From assembly GCF_030253575.1 (NCBI RefSeq), contig NC_080559.1, positions 27,678,501 through 27,742,500 on the forward strand: 64,000 nt of DNA, in the 5' to 3' direction. Numbering within the stretch: position 1 is the first letter of the stretch; every line of letters begins with the position of its first letter. Source of the DNA: Rhododendron vialii (Eukaryota > Streptophyta > Magnoliopsida > Ericales > Ericaceae). The notes beneath the pieces were generated by a model, which was not told the DNA's origin, did no database searches, and worked only from the letters and a program-made list of their open reading frames with translations. Shown here piece by piece: positions 1,902-59,526 of the stretch. The position numbers and the translations under genes were made by a program.

Positions 1902-2324
1902 CAAAAACTTGAGCTCTCTCCCTCCCTCTCTTGGCCGGCCCTCTCTCTCTCTCTCCCATTCTCCCATGGATTTGTTCCATTGACTTGTCATTTCAGGCCT
2001 TTAATCAAGATCCTAGCCTTCCCTCACTTGTCAATCCAATTTTAGGCCAAATCCTAGGTTATTATGAAGGGTTTATGGCTTGTCTTGTCCTAGAAAGAGT
2101 TTACTTATAAGGAAGAACAAAATCATGGGCTAGGTTTATGACTAAAGTAGCCTAGAATGGGTTGGCATGTCATAAATAGACTTTAAGGCTATAAGATAAC
2201 TTGTGTAAGTGAACAAAAATACACCACACACTCCACCTCTCTCCCTATCTCTCGGCCTCCCACTCTTTCTCTCTCCCTCTCCCCCTCTCTCTCTCCCTCT
2301 CCCCTCTTGTACTACATATATATA

Positions 2325-2622
2325 CACTACAATTCTAATAAGGGCGTCCTCACAAATCATAACTTGCGGACGTCCTCTTCTGGCCGTTGGATGAGATCCC
2401 ACGGCCCTGATTTTAAAATGGCATCTCGCGGGTAAAATGAGGAATGGGTCGGGTAATATCCACACGCGGGTCATCCGGAAACCACACACGGGTCATAACC
2501 CCCCAAACTTCTACAGTACGCCTCATTCTACTCGTTTGAAAGAAGAGAGAAAAAAGAGAGGCGATTCAGAAACGAAGAACGAAGAACGGATCGAAGAACG
2601 AAGAACAACGGATCACTCCAGG

Positions 2623-2680
<58 letters not shown>

Positions 2681-3179
2681 CCCGTCTTCCCCCTTTCGTT
2701 CGTAACTCAACGCAAAAAAAATGACCCTCTGTATGTCTTTTTTCGCAGATCCGAACGAAGAACAAATCGAACGTGGGTACAGTAGTGAAGACGAAGACCC
2801 GACCTTCTTCGAGGTATCTCTCTCTTTCTCAATCAATTTGTTCAACCCCCAATTTTTAGGGGTTTTTTTTTTCGAAAATCTGGTTTTTTTTTTTTTTTCG
2901 AAAATCTGGTGTTTTTTTTTTCCGAAAATCTGGTGTTTTTTTTTTTTTTTTCCGTTTCTCTATGTGTGTGTGTGTGTGTTGTATTTTATTGTGTTAAATC
3001 AGTTTGAAAGAAAGAAGTGCAGGGTTCTTTATGGTAGATAGATGATCCTAAAAAGTGTTATGCTTAAGTTGACTATGAACCATTTTCTGAAACATATGAA
3101 GTTGCAGCACTGGTGCAAAAATTAACTCTATCTGAAGTTGTTGAGAACTTACAAAATCTACTAGATTTCGAAACTACTT
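2325..3179 (+). repeat. left terminal inverted repeat of the MULE
   Basis: It matches 8052-8900 in reverse complement. The main differences are microsatellite lengths: a (CT)n tract near 2625-2678 is longer here than its partner (about 8549-8572), and the T-runs at 2862-2952 differ. The TIR holds two consensus-like donor sites facing inward (CCAG then GTATCT near 2621, and CGAG then GTATCT near 2814) and an acceptor-like TTCGCAG near 2749. It therefore probably supplies a spliced 5' leader to the gene beginning at 3412. Confidence 0.9.
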
Positions 3180-3411
3180 GAAAACTACTTGAAGAGGTAC
3201 ATGCCTTAAAATTAACTGGGTTTGGATTTGTCTCTTGTTCGAGTTAGGGTTTCTTAAATCACCCAAAAAGAAAAAGTGTGCCCCATTTGATTTTACTGGA
3301 TTTTAGAGCTTGCAGATGAATCGAGGAAATTTTGTTCATTTTTGCATGCATGTTAAGTACTAAAATCTTGTTTCTTGTTTATTTGCTTATCAAGTTAATT
3401 TTTTTCTAAGA

Positions 3412-3780
3412 ATGGCAGAAAAAAGGTTCTATTATGTTGTTTTTGTTGGAAAAGTCCCGGGAATCTATGAAAGTTGGATAGCTTGTAGTGAACAAGTAAC
3501 TCGCTTCTCTGGGGCTGTGTTTAAAAAGTATCCCTCATTGGAAGAGGCAAATAATGTTTGGAGTGCATATGTTGAAGCTCATTCCAATGTGCAATTGCTG
3601 TCTCCTCAACTTGCTCAACTCCCGACCGATTATCCACCTTTGCTCGTACCTGTGCAAGCAAACATGGATCACCAAACTCCTTCCAACCAGCCCAAACATT
3701 GCATGTACATTGCAATGCTCTTTCTTGGAGCTGTAATAGGAATTTTAATTTTGTTGGTCACGATATATATTTTCTTTTAG
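3412..3780 (+). CDS. MULE-encoded RNase H1 N-terminal-domain protein with C-terminal membrane tail
   Basis: This is an intronless 122-residue protein. Residues about 4-50 (FYYVVFVGKVPGIYESW through FSGAVFKKYPSLEEANNVW) match the small RNase H1 N-terminal domain, which binds RNA/DNA hybrids in eukaryotic RNase H1 (Pfam's Cauli_VI family). No RNase H catalytic domain follows. Residues about 96-121 form a strongly hydrophobic segment ending three residues or fewer from the stop, like a tail anchor. It is the only clear gene reading inward from the left TIR, the position held by mudrB in MuDR. The start is the first ATG of the frame (AAGAATGGC). Its role is unknown; it may be an accessory transposition protein or a captured host fragment. 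Confidence 0.65.
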   Translation: MAEKRFYYVVFVGKVPGIYESWIACSEQVTRFSGAVFKKYPSLEEANNVWSAYVEAHSNVQLLSPQLAQLPTDYPPLLVPVQANMDHQTPSNQPKHCMYIAMLFLGAVIGILILLVTIYIFF

Positions 3781-4388
3781 TTGGTTTATGTAAAGCTTAA
3801 GTTGAACAAAATTTCAAGCTCGTGATGTGTACAAATTTGAAACTTGAGCAAGTGTTATTGCTTTATGAGTATGGTACACTGAATGTTTTTTGAACCACGC
3901 ATTGGCAGCACATGTGATACATTCTTGGTGCTTTGTGGTGTGTACAAATGAGCTTGTGTGACTCTAACTGCAGATTTGAAAATTTGGTGATAAGTTCGAA
4001 AATATTGTCCAGCAGTACCTTTTCTCTTTGCTACTGAGGGAGCAGAATTCATGTTCAGTTTTCGTCAAATGAGGGGCTCTGTGATCCTTTGGAGTTGGCA
4101 TATGTTGACAGGGGACAAAAACGAGAAGAAAATGGCAAAAGGAAATTGTATGGCCACACCAAGTGATATGGCCACAAGCTATTGTATTAGCCACTAAAAG
4201 TGACTCAAATATTGATTTGGTTTTCAAGGAAATTGGTATCCCAGATATTTCTTGCTCAGTGGTACTCCTTGTTTGTAAATAGGAATGGGTTGTGCAATCC
4301 TCCTTGCATAGTATCCGCAATTAGAGATAATCATATAGCAAAAACGTTTTTCATCACCACACAAATTTGAAGGAAAACGAGAAACACA

Positions 4389-4466
4389 ATGGTATAAAAA
4401 GAATCGATTCAAACAAATGGTATAAAAAGAATCGATTCAAACAAATGGTATAAAAAGAATTCATGA
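4389..4466. repeat. 28-bp tandem repeat, about 2.7 copies
   Basis: Copies beginning ATGGTATAAAAAGAATCGAT start at 4389, 4417 and 4445. The array lies inside the MULE, just downstream (minus sense) of the KOW-domain fragment. Confidence 0.85.
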
Positions 4467-4533
4467 ACAATAATATTCCACAGATATCACCAAAAAGGTA
4501 TAACAAAATAGCAACAAAGCCAAATCCCAACAC

Positions 4534-5162
4534 AATCAGACGGATCACTATAGCTTTCTTCCGTGCATCATCCATAGATACGACCTGAAAACCAGAAAAC
4601 AATCTACAACAGAGACCAGAAAATAATCTAGTAAAGAGCTCTGTCCAATGGACTTGTGCTAGATCCCCTTTATATTTCCCACTCTTCACCCGGACCCAAG
4701 TGCCCACTGAAACTGAAACTTCATTGTATTTGCTTCGCACAGAGAGGAAATGAGAAATTTCATTACTTGGGACTGGTGTCACCCGGCTCGAATATATAGA
4801 ACAGAGACCTTTGCATGCCTACATTTGAATTGACATGTTTCCACATTAGTTCACTCGCAGTAGCATCCCCAATAAGAGCAAAAATACTGGCATACCAAAA
4901 ACAAAGCTAAATATTTGCCATAACCAGAAACTAAAACGACGACAAAGAAGAAGAAAACCCCACATGCAATTAATGCAACCATACGTAACGAATCTTCCGC
5001 ATACGTAACGAAACCAGCACCTGGTCTGTAATGCTCTTCCATCATTTTTTCCAGTTCTTCCTCACTCATCTCCTCCTCTTTGGGGAAAAAGTAGAAACTG
5101 ATGGTCTTTTCCAAAATCATTTTTGCCTTCGTCAGTTGTTTTAAATTCATCTTCCAGGAAGC
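4534..5162 (-). pseudogene. captured KTF1/SPT5L-like fragment, with introns, NGN domain missing
   Basis: Three minus-strand exon-like blocks match the plant SPT5-like RdDM factor KTF1 (RDM3). Block 5162-4989 encodes FLEDEF, then FPKEEEMSEEELEKMMEE and YRPGAGFVTYAED. Block 4773-4654 encodes VPSNEISHFLSVRSK and GTWVRVKSGKYKGDLAQ (the KOW motif). Block 4584-4534 continues VVSMDDARKKAIVIRLI after a GT...TTTTCAG intron. A further acidic exon lies at 5551-5490. The NGN domain expected between the first two blocks is absent, and one extra base in the T-run at 5090-5086 breaks the frame before FPKEEE. Retained introns imply capture from genomic DNA. The AGO-binding WG/GW tail of KTF1 is not present. 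Identification rests on remembered family motifs. Confidence 0.75.
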
Positions 5163-7914
5163 CTTTATTCAATGGAGAAAAACAACAAACCAGTAAGCCA
5201 AGGTTCAGAGCATAATCACAAATAAATAAAGCAGTTCTACAACCCACGCAAAAAAAGAAAATAGCATTTCACCACAACGTTATCCAAAACCAACAAGATC
5301 AGAAGTTTCAGAATGACATCACAACAAAATCAGAAAACCCCACATGCAATGCAACCACAAAAGCCCCAACAGCAGTTCCAAACTGCTACACCAATCTATC
5401 CTGCAAGCCGAATAGGCAATATTATCAATAGAAGAAACAAAATAGATGTACCACAAAATCGTTTGAAGCATTTTATAATAAACACTTACAAGCATCGTCG
5501 TCGTCTTCGTCGTCGTCGTCTTCATCATTCAACTCAGCATTTTGCGAAGATCTAACAAAAAAAAAGAGGAATTAAAATGCAAACAATGAAATAATTAAAT
5601 TTAGATTACAAATATTGAACACATACGTGCTGAGAAGTTTTGGACAATTTCTTTTGTCGTGCGATTGCCCTGTTAACCCACAACCATGACAACGCCTAGC
5701 TTTCTTGGCAGCCTTTTTTTTCCCTCCCTTGAGTCGTTTACCACAACCCTTAGCCCTCACTTGAAGCGGTTCTTTCAAACCATGATCACAAATAATCGAC
5801 ACTTGGATAGCACTCCCTTCACCATCTTCGCTTACTTTTTTCATGTCACACAACTTCTTTTGACCCGAACTCAAAAGTTCTTCCACAAATTGTGTTCCGT
5901 CCTCAGATACTACGGCCTCATCAATTAAAGTAGAAGCAAGTTGGAAGAGTCTATTTCGCCGCTCTAACAAAGGCGTGTCACATATTTGTTTCATGCCTGA
6001 ACTCAAGTCATCTCTAACTCGCATAGCCTTCGCTGATTTTGTCCACCTCCACAAGATGTATTCATTAGGCAAATCTTCTATTTGCATTCTAGAAAAGTAA
6101 GCCAAGATGTGCCGACAAGGAATTCCGGCACACTCAAACATCTTACAACTACAACGGACATGGTTTGACGACTTATCTACCACAACTTCATGAACCCTCG
6201 AACCACTCCCCTTTATCCTATGAACGGCATACACAACCCGATGTTCGTCCTCATTTGTTGCCATCACTTTATAAGCAGTATTTTGAAAGAGCTCATCTTG
6301 AAACATGTAAAATATCTCAAATGTATACAATTCACTCATTGTCGACTCCATGGGGTACATAGATTTCAAGTTGGGCCTCTCATTGATGTCTTTATGATCC
6401 CTATCCAACTCATTATGGCGTATACGTGCAAGTGCCCTCCCAAAACGCGTCACAAAGTCCAACAATGAATTTTCTTTAGACACATACCTCTTGAAGAATG
6501 AATGAGTAATTTCGGCTCTTTGACTACTAGTCATGTGGGCAGAAAAAATGTGTCTCACGTATGCAGGAACCCATCTCTCACGAATTTCGTACAAGTTTTG
6601 TAACCAATCATTGCCGGATAAGTTAGCTTTATTTATCACCTCTACCCATCCAGCCTCGAATTGTTCAGGGGTCTCGGAATTCCATATACAATTCTTAAAC
6701 TCCTCATAATATTCTTTGTAGGACAACGCACTTAATTTTTCTGAAAACTTATTCGTAATGTGCCACATGCAATACCTATGATGCGTATTCGGAAGAGCAA
6801 TACCAATTGCTTTTGTCATTGCGGGATCCTGATCAGTTATGATCATTTTGGGAGGGCCTGCGGGCATTGCTTTCAACCATTCCTTGAAAAGCCACTCAAA
6901 AGTCTCAGCTGTTTCATCACATAAAAATGCACACCCAAAAAGAGTAGTCTGCCTATGGTGATTAACCCCTAAAATCGGTGCGAAAATCATAGAATAACGG
7001 TTAGTGTTATACGTAGTATCAAACACCACAACGTCCCCAAAATACTGGTATGACTTTCTAGCGGTTGCATCTGCCCAAAAACAATTTGTCATCCTCCCCT
7101 CATCATCTTTCTCTATTGTATAAGTAAAACCGTCATTCTTTACTTTTTCAGTCTCAAAGTACTCGTACAACATATTGGCGTCATGTCCGTCTACCGTTTT
7201 CTTCATATCCCTTTTATAATTATAAAGATCTTGTTGTGAGCATCCAACATTTTGAAGACCTCCCGATTCCAACTCAAATAGAGTCATTTGTTGACATGTT
7301 GGCACATTTGCTGCTGAAAGTTGTTCTATTAAAGCTTTTTTGGCAGCGGACACTTTGCGATGGGATCGGAGCAAATGCACCCTTCTCGGAGACGTAAGTG
7401 CGTGATTATGACTTTCGAAAAATTGGGAGACAACGTACTTTTCCCCCTTCCTCACAACAGCTAATTTTGCACGACAATTCTCTCTAGTTAGCCCCCGACG
7501 CCGTTTCTTTGGTTGAGTACTTTTTTGGACCCTCAACCCTTGTTTGAAACAACAAAACTCCTTCCTAACGATTACATGGTCTGAATTCTTTCTACTAGTA
7601 TGTGCTCGGGTACTAAATCCACCTTCTTTACCATAACGGTTGTAAAATTTCCGAACGTTCTCTAAACTGTCAAACTCTTGGTTAATTTTTGGTATGAGCT
7701 CATTCTTGACTTGGGGAGTGTAAAGTAATTGTGAAGAATTAGCAGATGACAGCACACTACAATCCAAGAGACAAAATAATAACAATTGATCAATTTCGTA
7801 TAATTTTTTAACCCTAATTTTTTAACCCAACGACAGAGGGAGAGAGACAGACCTTGGTTGGTGGACGGTCGGTGGTGGTATGACACTTTCTTCTTCTTGT
7901 CGATTGCTCTCCAT
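5062..7914 (-). CDS. FAR1/MULE-type transposase, predicted C-terminal fusion to KTF1-like exons
   Basis: The predicted exons are 7914-7853, 7756-5627, 5551-5490 and 5162-5062. All junctions are GT-AG and in phase, giving 784 residues. The protein starts MESNRQEEESV. A FAR1 DNA-binding region spans about 49-141. The MULE catalytic core has FDTTY (Asp about 267), TDQDP (Asp about 329) and YCMWH, with the expected later acidic residue probably in the AEITHSFF region. A SWIM zinc finger CSCKMFECAGIPCRH follows, then a basic linker and a zinc knuckle CHGCGLTGQSHDKRNC. The core is complete, so it could be active. After CPKLLST the frame splices to an acidic NDEDDDDEDDDD segment and FLEDEF..., both KTF1-like, ending at a frameshift-induced stop. 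Without the last splice the protein would end near 5572. Confidence 0.8.
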
Positions 7915-8051
7915 ATCTAGTCGGGGAAAAAAAATATAAATGAACCTTCTTTCTTTTCAAACTTGTTCAACACAATAAAATACAACACGCACAGGAAAAA
8001 AATAAAACAATTTCAAATCCAATAAAAAAATCTGATTTTTTCAAACATATG

Positions 8052-8900
8052 AAGTAGTTTCGAAATCTAGTAGATTTTGTAAGTTCTCAACAACTTCAGA
8101 TAGAGTTAATTTTTGCACCAGTGCTGCAACTTCATATGTTTCAGAAAATGGTTCATAGTCAACTTAAGCATAACACTTTTTAGGATCATCTATCTACCAT
8201 AAAGAACCCTGCACTTCTTTCTTTCAAACTGATTTAACACAATAAAATACAACACACACACACACACAGAGAAACGGGAAAAAAAAAAAACACCAGATTT
8301 TCGGAAAAAAAAAACACCAGATTTTCGAAAAAAAAAAAAAAAACCAGATTTTCGAAAAAAAAAACCCCTAAAAATTGGGGGTTGAACAAATTGATTGAGA
8401 AAGAGAGAGATACCTCGAAGAAGGTCGGGTCTTCGTCTTCACTACTGTACCCACGTTCGATTTGCTCTTCGTTCGGATCTGCGAAAAAAGACATACAGAG
8501 GGTCATTTTTTTTGCGTTGAGTTACGAACGAAAGGGGGAAGACGGGGGGAGAGAGAGAGAGAGAGAGAGAGAGATACCTGGAGTGATCCGTTGTTCTTCG
8601 TTCTTCGATCTCCGTTCTTCGATCCGTTCTTCGATCCGTTCTTCGTTCTTCGTTTCTGAATCGCCTCTCTTTTTTCTCTCTTCTTTCAAACGAGTAGAAT
8701 GAGGCGTACTGTAGAAGTTTGGGGGGTTATGACCCGTGTGTGGTTTCCGGATGACCCGCGTGTGGATATTACCCGACCCATTCCTCATTTTACCCGCGAG
8801 ATGCCATTTTAAAATCAGGGCCGTGGGATCTCATCCAACGGCCAGAAGAGGACGTCCGCAAGTTATGATTTGTGAGGACGCCCTTATTAGAATTGTAGTG
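8052..8900 (-). repeat. right terminal inverted repeat of the MULE
   Basis: This is the reverse complement of 2325-3179. Read inward on the minus strand it would supply the promoter and spliced leader of the transposase, whose ATG lies 138 bp inside it. The CT tract here is shorter than in the left copy. Confidence 0.9.
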
Positions 8901-9704
8901 TATATATATATATATACACACACATATATGGTTATCTATGAGAAAAAAATAAATAGTTTTAGGTCTAGGTAGTCTTAAGTCTATTTGGAAGAGAAAAAGT
9001 CATGGGGAGTTTTCAAGTGACTACTCAATGGAGGAAATTTCCTAGAAAGTGTACTTATGCAAGTATAGGCTTATATAGGCATGCTAACATAGCTTATGAA
9101 GTACATATATACATATATATGAGTATATATGTGTGTCTAGGAAAGTAACTCTAGGATAATTAGGTTTTAAGGCTATACCTTAGGTTTGCATGCATGACAT
9201 GCATAAAGATGGCCACCTTTGGAAGCAACATGATGGCTATGACTTGTCTAGTCAAAGTTATATATATATATATATATATATATTGGCAAGTCAAATGGCC
9301 AATAACCAAGGGATAATAATTTTTCTAGCATTTATTAACCAATGGTTAAAAAGGTAAATGATGGTAGATATGGGTTTGAATGACCATTCATGGGGTATAA
9401 TGATTACCCCTAAAGGTCTAAGGGTTCAATTAGGTTTGGGAGAGGTTCATAAGGTTAAAAAAGTCCAATTAGGGTTAGGGACATGTAACTAGGTGAATTG
9501 GTAGCCCGGTTCCTCCAACTAATCGGTTGGAAACTAACTTTATTAGCCATGTAGGGTGTTTAATCAAGAATTGAATTTTTAAAGGACTAAAATCTAATTA
9601 TGATGGATTATAAGAATTAAAAAGAAATATTAAAAGTAATATCGAGTAATTATAAAGAAATAATGAAATTTTTATTCATTAAAAATTAGAGTCGTTACAA
9701 AAAC

Positions 9705-55599: not shown

Positions 55600-56304
55600 T
55601 CAAATTGAATAACTCCAGAGGGACACGTCAGCATCAAGTGCCATGTCATCTCCACCATAAGAGTGACGAGGAGGAGGCAACATCAACCCTTCCGCCATGT
55701 TGGCAAGATAACCGGGCATCCCAAAAACCGCCTCCTCGTCCATAAAAAACACTCCCTCCGCCGCTTCCGCCGTCTCCTCCGCCACGCCCGCCCCCCCAGA
55801 AACCGCCTCGGACTCCGAACCCCTTCGGAACTCCTCCTCGGCTGCCTCCGCTGCGGCCTTCTGAATGTCCTTCGAGTCCTTAGACGCGGGAATCGGTAAC
55901 TTCCAAGCCGAGTCCGCGAAGTTGAGGCAGGCCGACCGGCCCCTCAACGCGATGGCCGCCACGTCGTGGGCCCTCGCCGCCATCTCCGCCGTGTGGAACG
56001 TCCCCAGCCATATCCTCGACTTCTTGTTGGGCTCCCTCACCTCGCAGACCCACTTGCCCGAGTTCCGCCGCCTCACGCCGCGGTACACCGGGTGCCGAGT
56101 CTCCCGGAACTTCTTCCTCCCGGCGCGCTTCTTCGGGTGGCTGGAGGCCAGCATCACCTCCTCGTCGGAGAAGTTCGCCGGGCAGGCAGGGCTCCGGCAG
56201 CCCTCGGAGGAAGATTCCGGCGGGTCAATCGACCAGAACGATGACGACCCACATGGAAGTGGGTCAGAAAATTGACCAAACGCATCCATTTGACTGGTTT
56301 CCAC
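55600..56304 (-). CDS. CBF/DREB1: CBF/DREB1 AP2/ERF transcription factor, copy 1
   Basis: An intronless 234-residue protein. The CBF signature [16 protein letters not shown] spans residues 57-72, the AP2 domain about 74-131 ([38 protein letters not shown]), and the second signature DSAWK 131-135 (usually DSAWR). An acidic activation region with [13 protein letters not shown] follows, and the protein ends LWSYSI. CBF/DREB1 proteins bind CRT/DRE (CCGAC) elements and drive cold acclimation. The coding region is markedly GC-rich compared with its flanks, as usual for these genes. A second copy follows at 58656. A TATA run lies about 150 bp upstream. The CBF/DREB1 identity is firm, but orthology to CBF1, 2, 3 or 4 is not resolved. 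Confidence 0.95.
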
Positions 56305-56451
56305 TTTCCAAAAATAGGCCTAACTGGTAGCAGTGGCAGACCCAGAAGTGGTAGTATTGGTTTTGAAAGAAAGTGTTTGAAAAGTGGAGTCCGGAGAGTT
56401 GAACAAGAGAAACTTCAGTTTTCCTTTTGGGGCACAAGCCACAAAGTTGGT

Positions 56452-58655: not shown

Positions 58656-59336
58656 TCAAATTGAATAACTCCAAAGGGACACGTCAGCATCAAGTTCCAT
58701 GTCATCGCCACCATAAGAAGAGTGATGAGGTGGAGGCAACATCAACCCTTCCGCCATGCTGGCAAGCAATCTTGGCATCCCAAAAACCGCCTCCTCGTCC
58801 ATAAAAAACACTCCCTCGAGTCCCTCCGCCACTTCCGCTTCCCCGGAGATCGCCTCCGACACCGAGCCCCGCAGAAACTCCTCCCGGGCTGCCTCCGCCG
58901 CGGCCTTCTGAATGTCCTTCGCGTCCGACGATGCGGGAATCGGTAGCTTCCAAGCCGAGTCCGCGAAGTTGAGGCAGGCCGACCGGCCCCTCAAAGCGAT
59001 GGCTGCCACGTCGTGGGCCCTCGCCGCCATCTCCGCCGTGTGGAACGTCCCCAGCCATATCCTCGACTTCTTGTTGGGCTCCCTCACCTCGCAGACCCAC
59101 TTGCCCGAGTTCCGCCGCCTCACGCCGCGGTACACGGGGTGCCGAGTCTCCCGGAACTTCTTCCTCCCGGCCCGTTTCTTCGGGTGGCTGGAGGCCAGCA
59201 TCACCTCCTCCTCGTCAGAGAAGTTCGCCGGCCGGGCAGCGCCCCCGCCGGAGGAGGAGGATTCCGGCCGGTCATTCGACCAGAATGATGATGACCCACA
59301 TGGGAGTGGGTCAGAAAATTGAGAAAACACATCCAT
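58656..59336 (-). CDS. CBF/DREB1: CBF/DREB1 AP2/ERF transcription factor, copy 2
   Basis: An intronless 226-residue tandem paralogue of copy 1 with the same organisation: [16 protein letters not shown] at residues 52-67, AP2 domain from about 69, DSAWK near 126-130, [13 protein letters not shown], and C-terminal LWSYSI. The AP2 region is identical in protein to copy 1 over its length and nearly identical in DNA. The N-terminal and acidic regions carry substitutions and small indels (for example a Gly-rich GGGAARP segment). It is presumably cold-regulated and CRT/DRE-binding like its neighbour. A TATA run lies about 190 bp upstream. Confidence 0.95.
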
Positions 59337-59526
59337 TTGATCGGTTTAAACTTTCCACAAAATGGCCAAACTGGTAGTTAGTGGCAGACCCAGATGGATA
59401 AAGTGTTTGAAAGTAGTACTGGAGACTGGAGAGTTCAACGTCTTCAGTTCAGTTTGTGGGTTTTTATGTTTGTGATTACTAGTGTTATTATACTCCGTAG
59501 TATTTACTCCATAATATCTTTCTATT

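Follow-up and report, generated by a model that had tools for sequence, protein, structure and literature searches.

The stretch of DNA analysed here (the window, 64,000 nucleotides of contig NC_080559.1 from Rhododendron vialii) contains a Mutator-like element (MULE) at 2325-8900, with inverted repeats of about 0.86 kb at both ends and two genes that converge, reading inward from opposite terminal repeats. Between the 3′ ends of these genes, downstream of the one encoding the transposase, lies a piece of the host gene KTF1/SPT5L, which encodes a factor of RNA-directed DNA methylation (RdDM). On the evidence of the sequence we put at roughly 0.86 the probability that this putatively autonomous MULE is an ordinary case of transduplication, with the KTF1 piece as passive, decaying and untranslated cargo. 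A preliminary description of the same DNA had proposed that KTF1 is expressed as an in-frame tail of the transposase, which the native splice at the end of the transposase gene and the position of the KTF1 piece both argue against.

The KTF1 fragment and the end of the transposase gene

The features concerned, all on the minus strand, are:

7853..7914: transposase exon 1 (MESNRQ...), from splice reconstruction
5627..7756: transposase exon 2, with FAR1, MULE and SWIM domains by profile scan and an apparent zinc knuckle on inspection, open throughout
5490..5551: the transposase's own acidic last exon, matched with frame kept in relatives without KTF1
5401..5489: last intron native to the transposase, with acceptor TTGCAG before 5400; T and GA are joined into a stop
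4545..5371: captured piece 3, a KTF1/SPT5L genomic fragment, 91-95% identical in DNA to host KTF1
4992..5162: KTF1 exon FLEDEF...FPKEEE...YAED, put out of frame by one extra base (CCCC for CCC)
4654..4818: KTF1 exon ACKGL...GTWVRVKSGKYKGDLAQ, part of KOW1, from a PDB-chain match and host alignment

That the captured blocks are typical of KTF1/SPT5L, as first proposed, is borne out by protein and DNA comparisons. Among PDB chains, Arabidopsis RDM3/KTF1 (8hyj_W) is the best match both of the FPKEEE...YAED block (E=3.8e-9) and of the KOW exon (1.3e-9); with the next exon joined, the latter reaches 1.5e-16, as against 3.2e-8 for the best SPT5. Within the 532.6 Mb genome searched (13 contigs, those named here being C2, C3, C5, C10, C11 and C12), the host KTF1 gene lies near 14.757 Mb on C3, the same contig as the window. 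Its exons read FLEDEF...KCM, VGRER...VNE (Spt5-NGN, PF03439, 5.2e-14), ACKGL...LAQ and VVSIDD..., and a C-terminal open reading frame (ORF) downstream has 48 GW/WG pairs. Aligned to this gene, introns included, window 4992-5371 is 95.3% identical, 4615-4957 is 91.0% and 4545-4586 is 95.2%; since introns are matched along with exons, the capture was of genomic DNA, in agreement with the preliminary description.

The captured sequence runs in the order intron, exon, deleted NGN region, intron, KOW1 exon, shortened intron and start of the next exon. It is without KOW4/5, and also without most of the NGN domain and the GW/WG repeats of the AGO4-binding C-terminus, the last two being features by which a functional KTF1 would be recognised. 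According to the available part of one report, AGO4 is brought in through the GW/WG tail, and KOW5 is the only part seen on Pol V (PMC10229537); with KOW4/5 and the GW/WG repeats left behind, the piece therefore includes no part for which contact with Pol V or AGO4 is reported there. At the NGN deletion, the filler (window 4957-4985) resembles the upstream KTF1 intron (5321-5357; 41 bases, 80%, E=0.001, the score of a longer alignment being reached in 25 of 1000 shuffles), and may have been copied from that intron during repair.

At the end of the transposase gene, the sequence confirms that exon 2 stops at 5627 before GTATGT and that GTAAGT stands behind an acidic exon at 5551-5490. That exon had been taken for a fragment of KTF1, and here the comparisons point elsewhere. 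A genome search with window 4400-5700, in which 40 of 94 candidates were scored and locus counts are lower bounds, gave at least 47 matches; at least 33 loci cover the end of the transposase together with the acidic exon and have no KTF1, one of them ending 5 bases short of the exon end. The exon and its donor are found in the same frame in 10 of the 11 fetched relatives without KTF1, L024 alone among the 11 departing from the pattern. Host KTF1 has no match to window 5490-5551, and the acidic stretch that its own first-exon ORF does contain differs in sequence. Present in 10 of the 11 relatives that lack KTF1, the acidic exon is the transposase's own last exon rather than part of KTF1.

Behind the acidic exon, a TTGCAG acceptor that makes the T/GA stop is present in 8 of 14 tabulated loci (E2 and E3, two further copies of the capture described below, and six relatives, which represent 6 of the 11 without KTF1), and the window copy, although missed by the pattern, has an acceptor of the same kind at 5400 with the same stop. 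Splice-site scores, for which approximate matrix values were used, are 8.67 at 5400 and 2.37 at 5162, the latter being the weak acceptor to which 5490 had been joined. Homology to KTF1 starts at 5371, about 120 bp past the acidic exon, in what should be 3′ untranslated region (UTR), and stops at window 4545. As the KTF1 piece lies past both the native acidic exon and the stop made by splicing, it would not be translated with the transposase.

The proposed fusion was also followed codon by codon. The joined exons had been said to carry FPKEEEM..., YRPGAGFVTYAED and GTWVRVK...; a forced splice from 5490 to 5162 instead reads FLEDEFKTTDEGKNDFGKDHQFLLFPQRGGDE and then meets a stop after 33 KTF1-derived codons, the last ones outside the KTF1 frame, where host KTF1 reads ...HQFPLFPKEEEM... 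at the matching place. The stop is due to a one-base shift, the window copy and E2 having CCCC where the host and the other two copies, E3 and E4, have CCC. None of 17 acceptors tried between 5430 and 5041, 10 of which are upstream of the block, put FPKEEEM in frame with the transposase. The KOW block shares the spliced frame but sits behind three stops, and it was reached before a stop by none of 22 donors (5160-4831) spliced to 4818 and by neither of two exon skips (of one or two exons). Across these combinations the KTF1 blocks were not found in frame with the transposase.

Copies of the capture and competing explanations

At least four copies of the element carry the KTF1 capture: that of the window (E1), E2 (C2:14.09 Mb, 97%), E3 (C12:4.50 Mb) and E4 (C2:39.72 Mb), the last with most of its transposase deleted (window 5441-7758 missing) and its second, accessory gene broken. 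The search for further copies suggested in the preliminary description thus gave at least three more having the same capture. Common to all four are the ends of the capture, a 6-bp duplication, the shortened intron and 19 substitutions relative to the host, 7 of them exonic (4 nonsynonymous) and 12 intronic; some of these may be host-side changes. The NGN region, present in host KTF1, is wholly deleted in E1-E3 and partly in E4, and from the greater length of NGN retained by E4 it follows that the original capture was longer and was later trimmed differently. The four copies go back to one capture that was subsequently damaged in different ways. E3 has a tandem repeat of a 656-bp unit that spans the end of the transposase and some of KTF1 (C12:4505037-4508287; L011 about 4675-8388).

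Divergence was compared with the NGN junction, the shortened intron and the first 30 host positions left out. Between copies, exons differ more than introns in five of six pairs (for example 10/368 v 8/348 and 10/333 v 3/348), the exception being E1-E2 (exon 2/368 v intron 3/348). Nonsynonymous changes make up 2/2 for E1-E2, 5/10 for E1-E3 and E2-E3, 9/12 for E1-E4 and E2-E4, and 6/10 for E3-E4, a share of 0.758 being expected without constraint. Nothing in these small numbers points clearly to a protein under selection.

According to the transduplication reading, the element would move by means of its own transposase and would have copied other host DNA, with a repair step in the process, into the non-coding middle between its two gene 3′ ends. 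Transcription would start from the terminal repeats, the native acceptor at 5400 would be used and would end the transposase protein, and the KTF1 cargo, transcribed if at all as 3′ UTR of the transposase gene, would be carried passively while decaying. We infer that the cargo has no function.

Several observations weigh against this reading. In comparison with the host, divergence is slightly lower in exons than in introns (13/368 v 16/348 for E1 and E2, 13/368 v 18/348 for E3 and 14/333 v 15/348 for E4), and nonsynonymous changes account for 8/13 in E1, 8/13 in E2, 5/13 in E3 and 9/14 in E4, the share in E3 being low. The lower exon difference would be explained by constraint on the host gene, which is presumably constrained, although counts as small as these may also be compatible with weak selection on the cargo. 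In L019, L020, L022 and L023, four of the 10 relatives that have the acidic exon, no TTGCAG-type acceptor was recognised, and the use of 5400 over 5162 is one that we infer from conservation and an approximate splice matrix. Finally, E3 and E4 are without the extra C and keep the KTF1 frame across the FLEDEF exon, so that a 5162-type splice in these copies would read through the FPKEEE block (FPKEKE in E4).

The frame kept in E3 and E4 is also an argument for a fusion at the protein level, in which the transposase would be spliced to KTF1 exons serving as a chromatin-targeting or decoy tail. It is true, as had been reported, that the phases of 5627/5551 and 5490/5162 agree and leave an open tail; in the window copy, however, that tail comprises 33 KTF1-derived residues whose end is out of frame, the acidic exon that leads to it is native to the transposase, the 5162 acceptor is weak by the approximate matrix and stands behind a strong native site, and the KOW block is beyond the reach of every donor and skip tried. 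Interference at the protein level is unlikely because neither the GW/WG tail nor KOW5, reported in the available part of PMC10229537 for AGO4 recruitment and Pol V contact, was captured, and we regard the fusion as highly improbable. It is scarcely credible that the acidic exon, like the blocks, comes from KTF1 and was captured with them, neither having a function. The acidic and FLEDEF exons do join in phase, and an X-bridged PDB alignment to KTF1 residues 59-128 suggested such an origin, mainly owing to the FPKEEE block; the occurrence of the same exon in relatives without KTF1, together with a host homology that begins only at 5371 and a host acidic stretch of different sequence, rules against it.

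A different possibility is interference at the level of RNA. Read-through from the two convergent genes would yield double-stranded KTF1 RNA and small interfering RNAs (siRNAs) that would reduce host KTF1 and thereby relax RdDM of the element. This is possible because the window copy has 99 24-mers and 122 21-mers in exact agreement with four host KTF1 exons and because the piece sits between the 3′ ends of convergent genes, and its carriage by at least four copies would fit as well. Against it, the remaining cargo of E1 is intron or downstream sequence for which no role in silencing is apparent, the KTF1 piece is damaged differently among the copies, and lowered KTF1 would presumably affect RdDM generally rather than on the element specifically. 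On the sequence evidence we consider it possible but unlikely. More doubtful still is the broader suggestion that the region between the genes acts as a general silencing trigger, in which read-through double-stranded RNA of each cargo would act on its source gene and the KTF1 cargo, as a self-made brake on RdDM, would have helped the element spread to at least four copies.

The element, its other cargo and its setting

The remaining features of the element are:

2325..3179, plus strand: left terminal inverted repeat, starting CACTACAATTC; outer end placed via copy comparison
8052..8900, minus strand: right terminal inverted repeat, from repeat alignment and copy comparison
3412..3780, plus strand: accessory gene of 122 aa with an RNase H1 N-terminal (hybrid-binding) domain (PF01693, E=5.5e-17) and a C-terminal hydrophobic segment
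3946..4295, strand not assigned: captured piece 1, matching sequence just downstream of an apparent last PP2C exon (C11:19105119-19105728), 87-88% in two blocks
4317..4546, strand not assigned: captured piece 2, matching an intron of a Nodulin-like/NFD4 gene (C10:617287-617661), 82-89%

KTF1 is not the only host sequence between the genes. In E1 this slot is a mosaic of PP2C-downstream, Nodulin-like intron and KTF1 pieces; the exon next to the C11 donor sequence matches PF00481 (E=1e-13), the C10 donor sequence lies between two ORFs bearing successive parts of PF06813, and pieces 1 and 2 would have been copied from these host loci into the element. The same slot in the relative L014 matches C2 at 42.08 and 41.92 Mb (81%) and C5 at 10.66 Mb (90%), about 60 bases of it being a common repeat. 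The C5 match is the start of a 527-aa ORF (L030 4078-5658, plus strand), the likely donor of coding sequence to this slot. Because other host loci match the slots of E1 and L014, KTF1 is, across the two, one cargo among several, most of them non-coding.

Piece 2 holds three 28-bp tandem units (window 4388-4471). Two hydrophobic stretches were considered as captured membrane anchors and rejected, the one after YAED being KTF1 intron sequence and the one after the KOW piece lying in the Nodulin-like intron match; among the 754 window ORFs of 40-160 aa, hydropathy is at least 2.9 in 5 and at least 2.4 in 27, both stretches included. The putative C-terminal ORF of host KTF1 (L026 2007-5000, minus strand) has 12 CCHC zinc-knuckle matches (PF00098, 6.4e-96). 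Zinc knuckles in KTF1 are to our knowledge unusual, and they possibly belong to a neighbouring gene in the same frame.

Transposase exons 1 (7914-7853) and 2 (7756-5627) together give 730 codons without a stop, with matches to the MULE (PF10551, 2.8e-30), FAR1 (PF03101, 7.3e-18) and SWIM (PF04434, 1.9e-6) domains, and exon 2 is open across 709 codons in all three copies that have it. Relatives of the accessory gene occur in 11 of 14 fetched loci, and in 8 of the 11 without KTF1; the gene is open over its full length in 6 of the 11 loci and in the window copy (in L014 without an ATG), and pairwise ratios of nonsynonymous to synonymous rates among these seven open copies are 0.45-0.72, one identical pair being undefined. 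An alignment of the two terminal repeats covers 834 positions, of which 831 are identical and 3 mismatched, and has 5 gap openings. Splice-site-like pairs occur within both repeats (window 2600-2830 and 8400-8620), and the two genes could share an identical spliced 5′ leader; a candidate leader for the plus-strand gene was identified in the left repeat, the one repeat scored, again with an approximate matrix.

The left repeat adjoins a (TA)n microsatellite, and a candidate 8-bp target site duplication, TATATATA, fits by eye (8-11 bp being expected) in a flank that is itself (TA)n repeat. Both ends in the window (2311-2330 and 8895-8925) are inside microsatellite, and the family copies L010, L011, L012, L013, L019 and L020 sit in (TA)n or (CA)n microsatellites. 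Among nine loci inspected, E1-E4 and L019 have such flanks on both sides and L020 on one side only; the end pattern applied to the nine did not find the ends of L014, L016 and L017. These flanks are those of MuTAnT-like, microsatellite-targeting MULEs. MULE, FAR1 and SWIM domains in the transposase, together with terminal inverted repeats, are what is expected of the FAR1/Jittery type, and the element is a young, recently active and putatively autonomous MULE of that type.

An Rfam scan of the window at gathering thresholds gave no matches, and comparisons with plasmids, phages, and viral and bacterial contigs gave nothing relevant. No VANC Pfam name appeared among the profile-scan matches of the window, in which no comparison aimed at VANC was made. 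Elsewhere in the window are two closely similar minus-strand ORFs (55600-56319, with an AP2 domain at 1.9e-15, and 58656-59345), CBF/DREB-like by eye.

Relation to other capturing elements

Pack-MULE and MULE transduplication, as described in the parts of the reports available, captures host pieces as DNA, with several donors per element and mostly pseudogene-like products (PMC13317346, PMC2528002, PMC4858842). The element described here likewise holds captured host exons and introns from several donors, but in contrast to a Pack-MULE, which has no transposase gene, it has intact transposase exons; E4, with most of its transposase deleted, is closer to the Pack-MULE description.

MuDR has convergent genes that are promoted from its terminal repeats. 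With MuDR (mudrA/mudrB) our element shares the possession of two genes (PMC6446971, in the part available), although in our element the second one carries the N-terminal domain of RNase H1, and in the open-licence literature searched we found no description of a gene with such a domain in MULEs. The order of a FAR1 N-terminal and SWIM/CCHC C-terminal domain is that of the Jittery group; the available part of the same source lists a single ORF for that group, with repeats of 39-292 bp or without repeats, compared with two genes and repeats of about 0.86 kb here (PMC6446971). Analogous to AutoMuTAnT and AgS-MULE, copies lie inside (TA)n or other microsatellites, and AutoMuTAnT has a Jittery-like transposase but is described with a single ORF; the available text of these reports makes no mention of captured cargo (PMC4486113, PMC5907723).

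Two further systems, again from the parts of the reports available, bear on the cargo itself. A KI-MULE with a captured ULP protease is a mudrA-bearing MULE holding host coding sequence, but it carries a 200-aa protease domain and no terminal inverted repeats, whereas here the fragments are broken and the repeats present (PMC2528002). Tgm-Express1 retains introns and splice sites in its captured fragments as our element does; it is, however, a CACTA element with demonstrated transcripts, and ours is a MULE known from DNA alone (PMC1947982).

In the open-licence literature searched we found no report of KTF1/SPT5L together with Pack-MULE or Pack-TYPE capture. The supposed fusion between transposase and RdDM factor is corrected to a native acidic exon beside what would be untranslated cargo, and the family offers a clean case of transposase-bearing MULEs that have two genes and, between them, a slot of variable host content. 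With cargo 91-95% identical to a silencing gene, it also makes siRNA feedback on the source gene testable.

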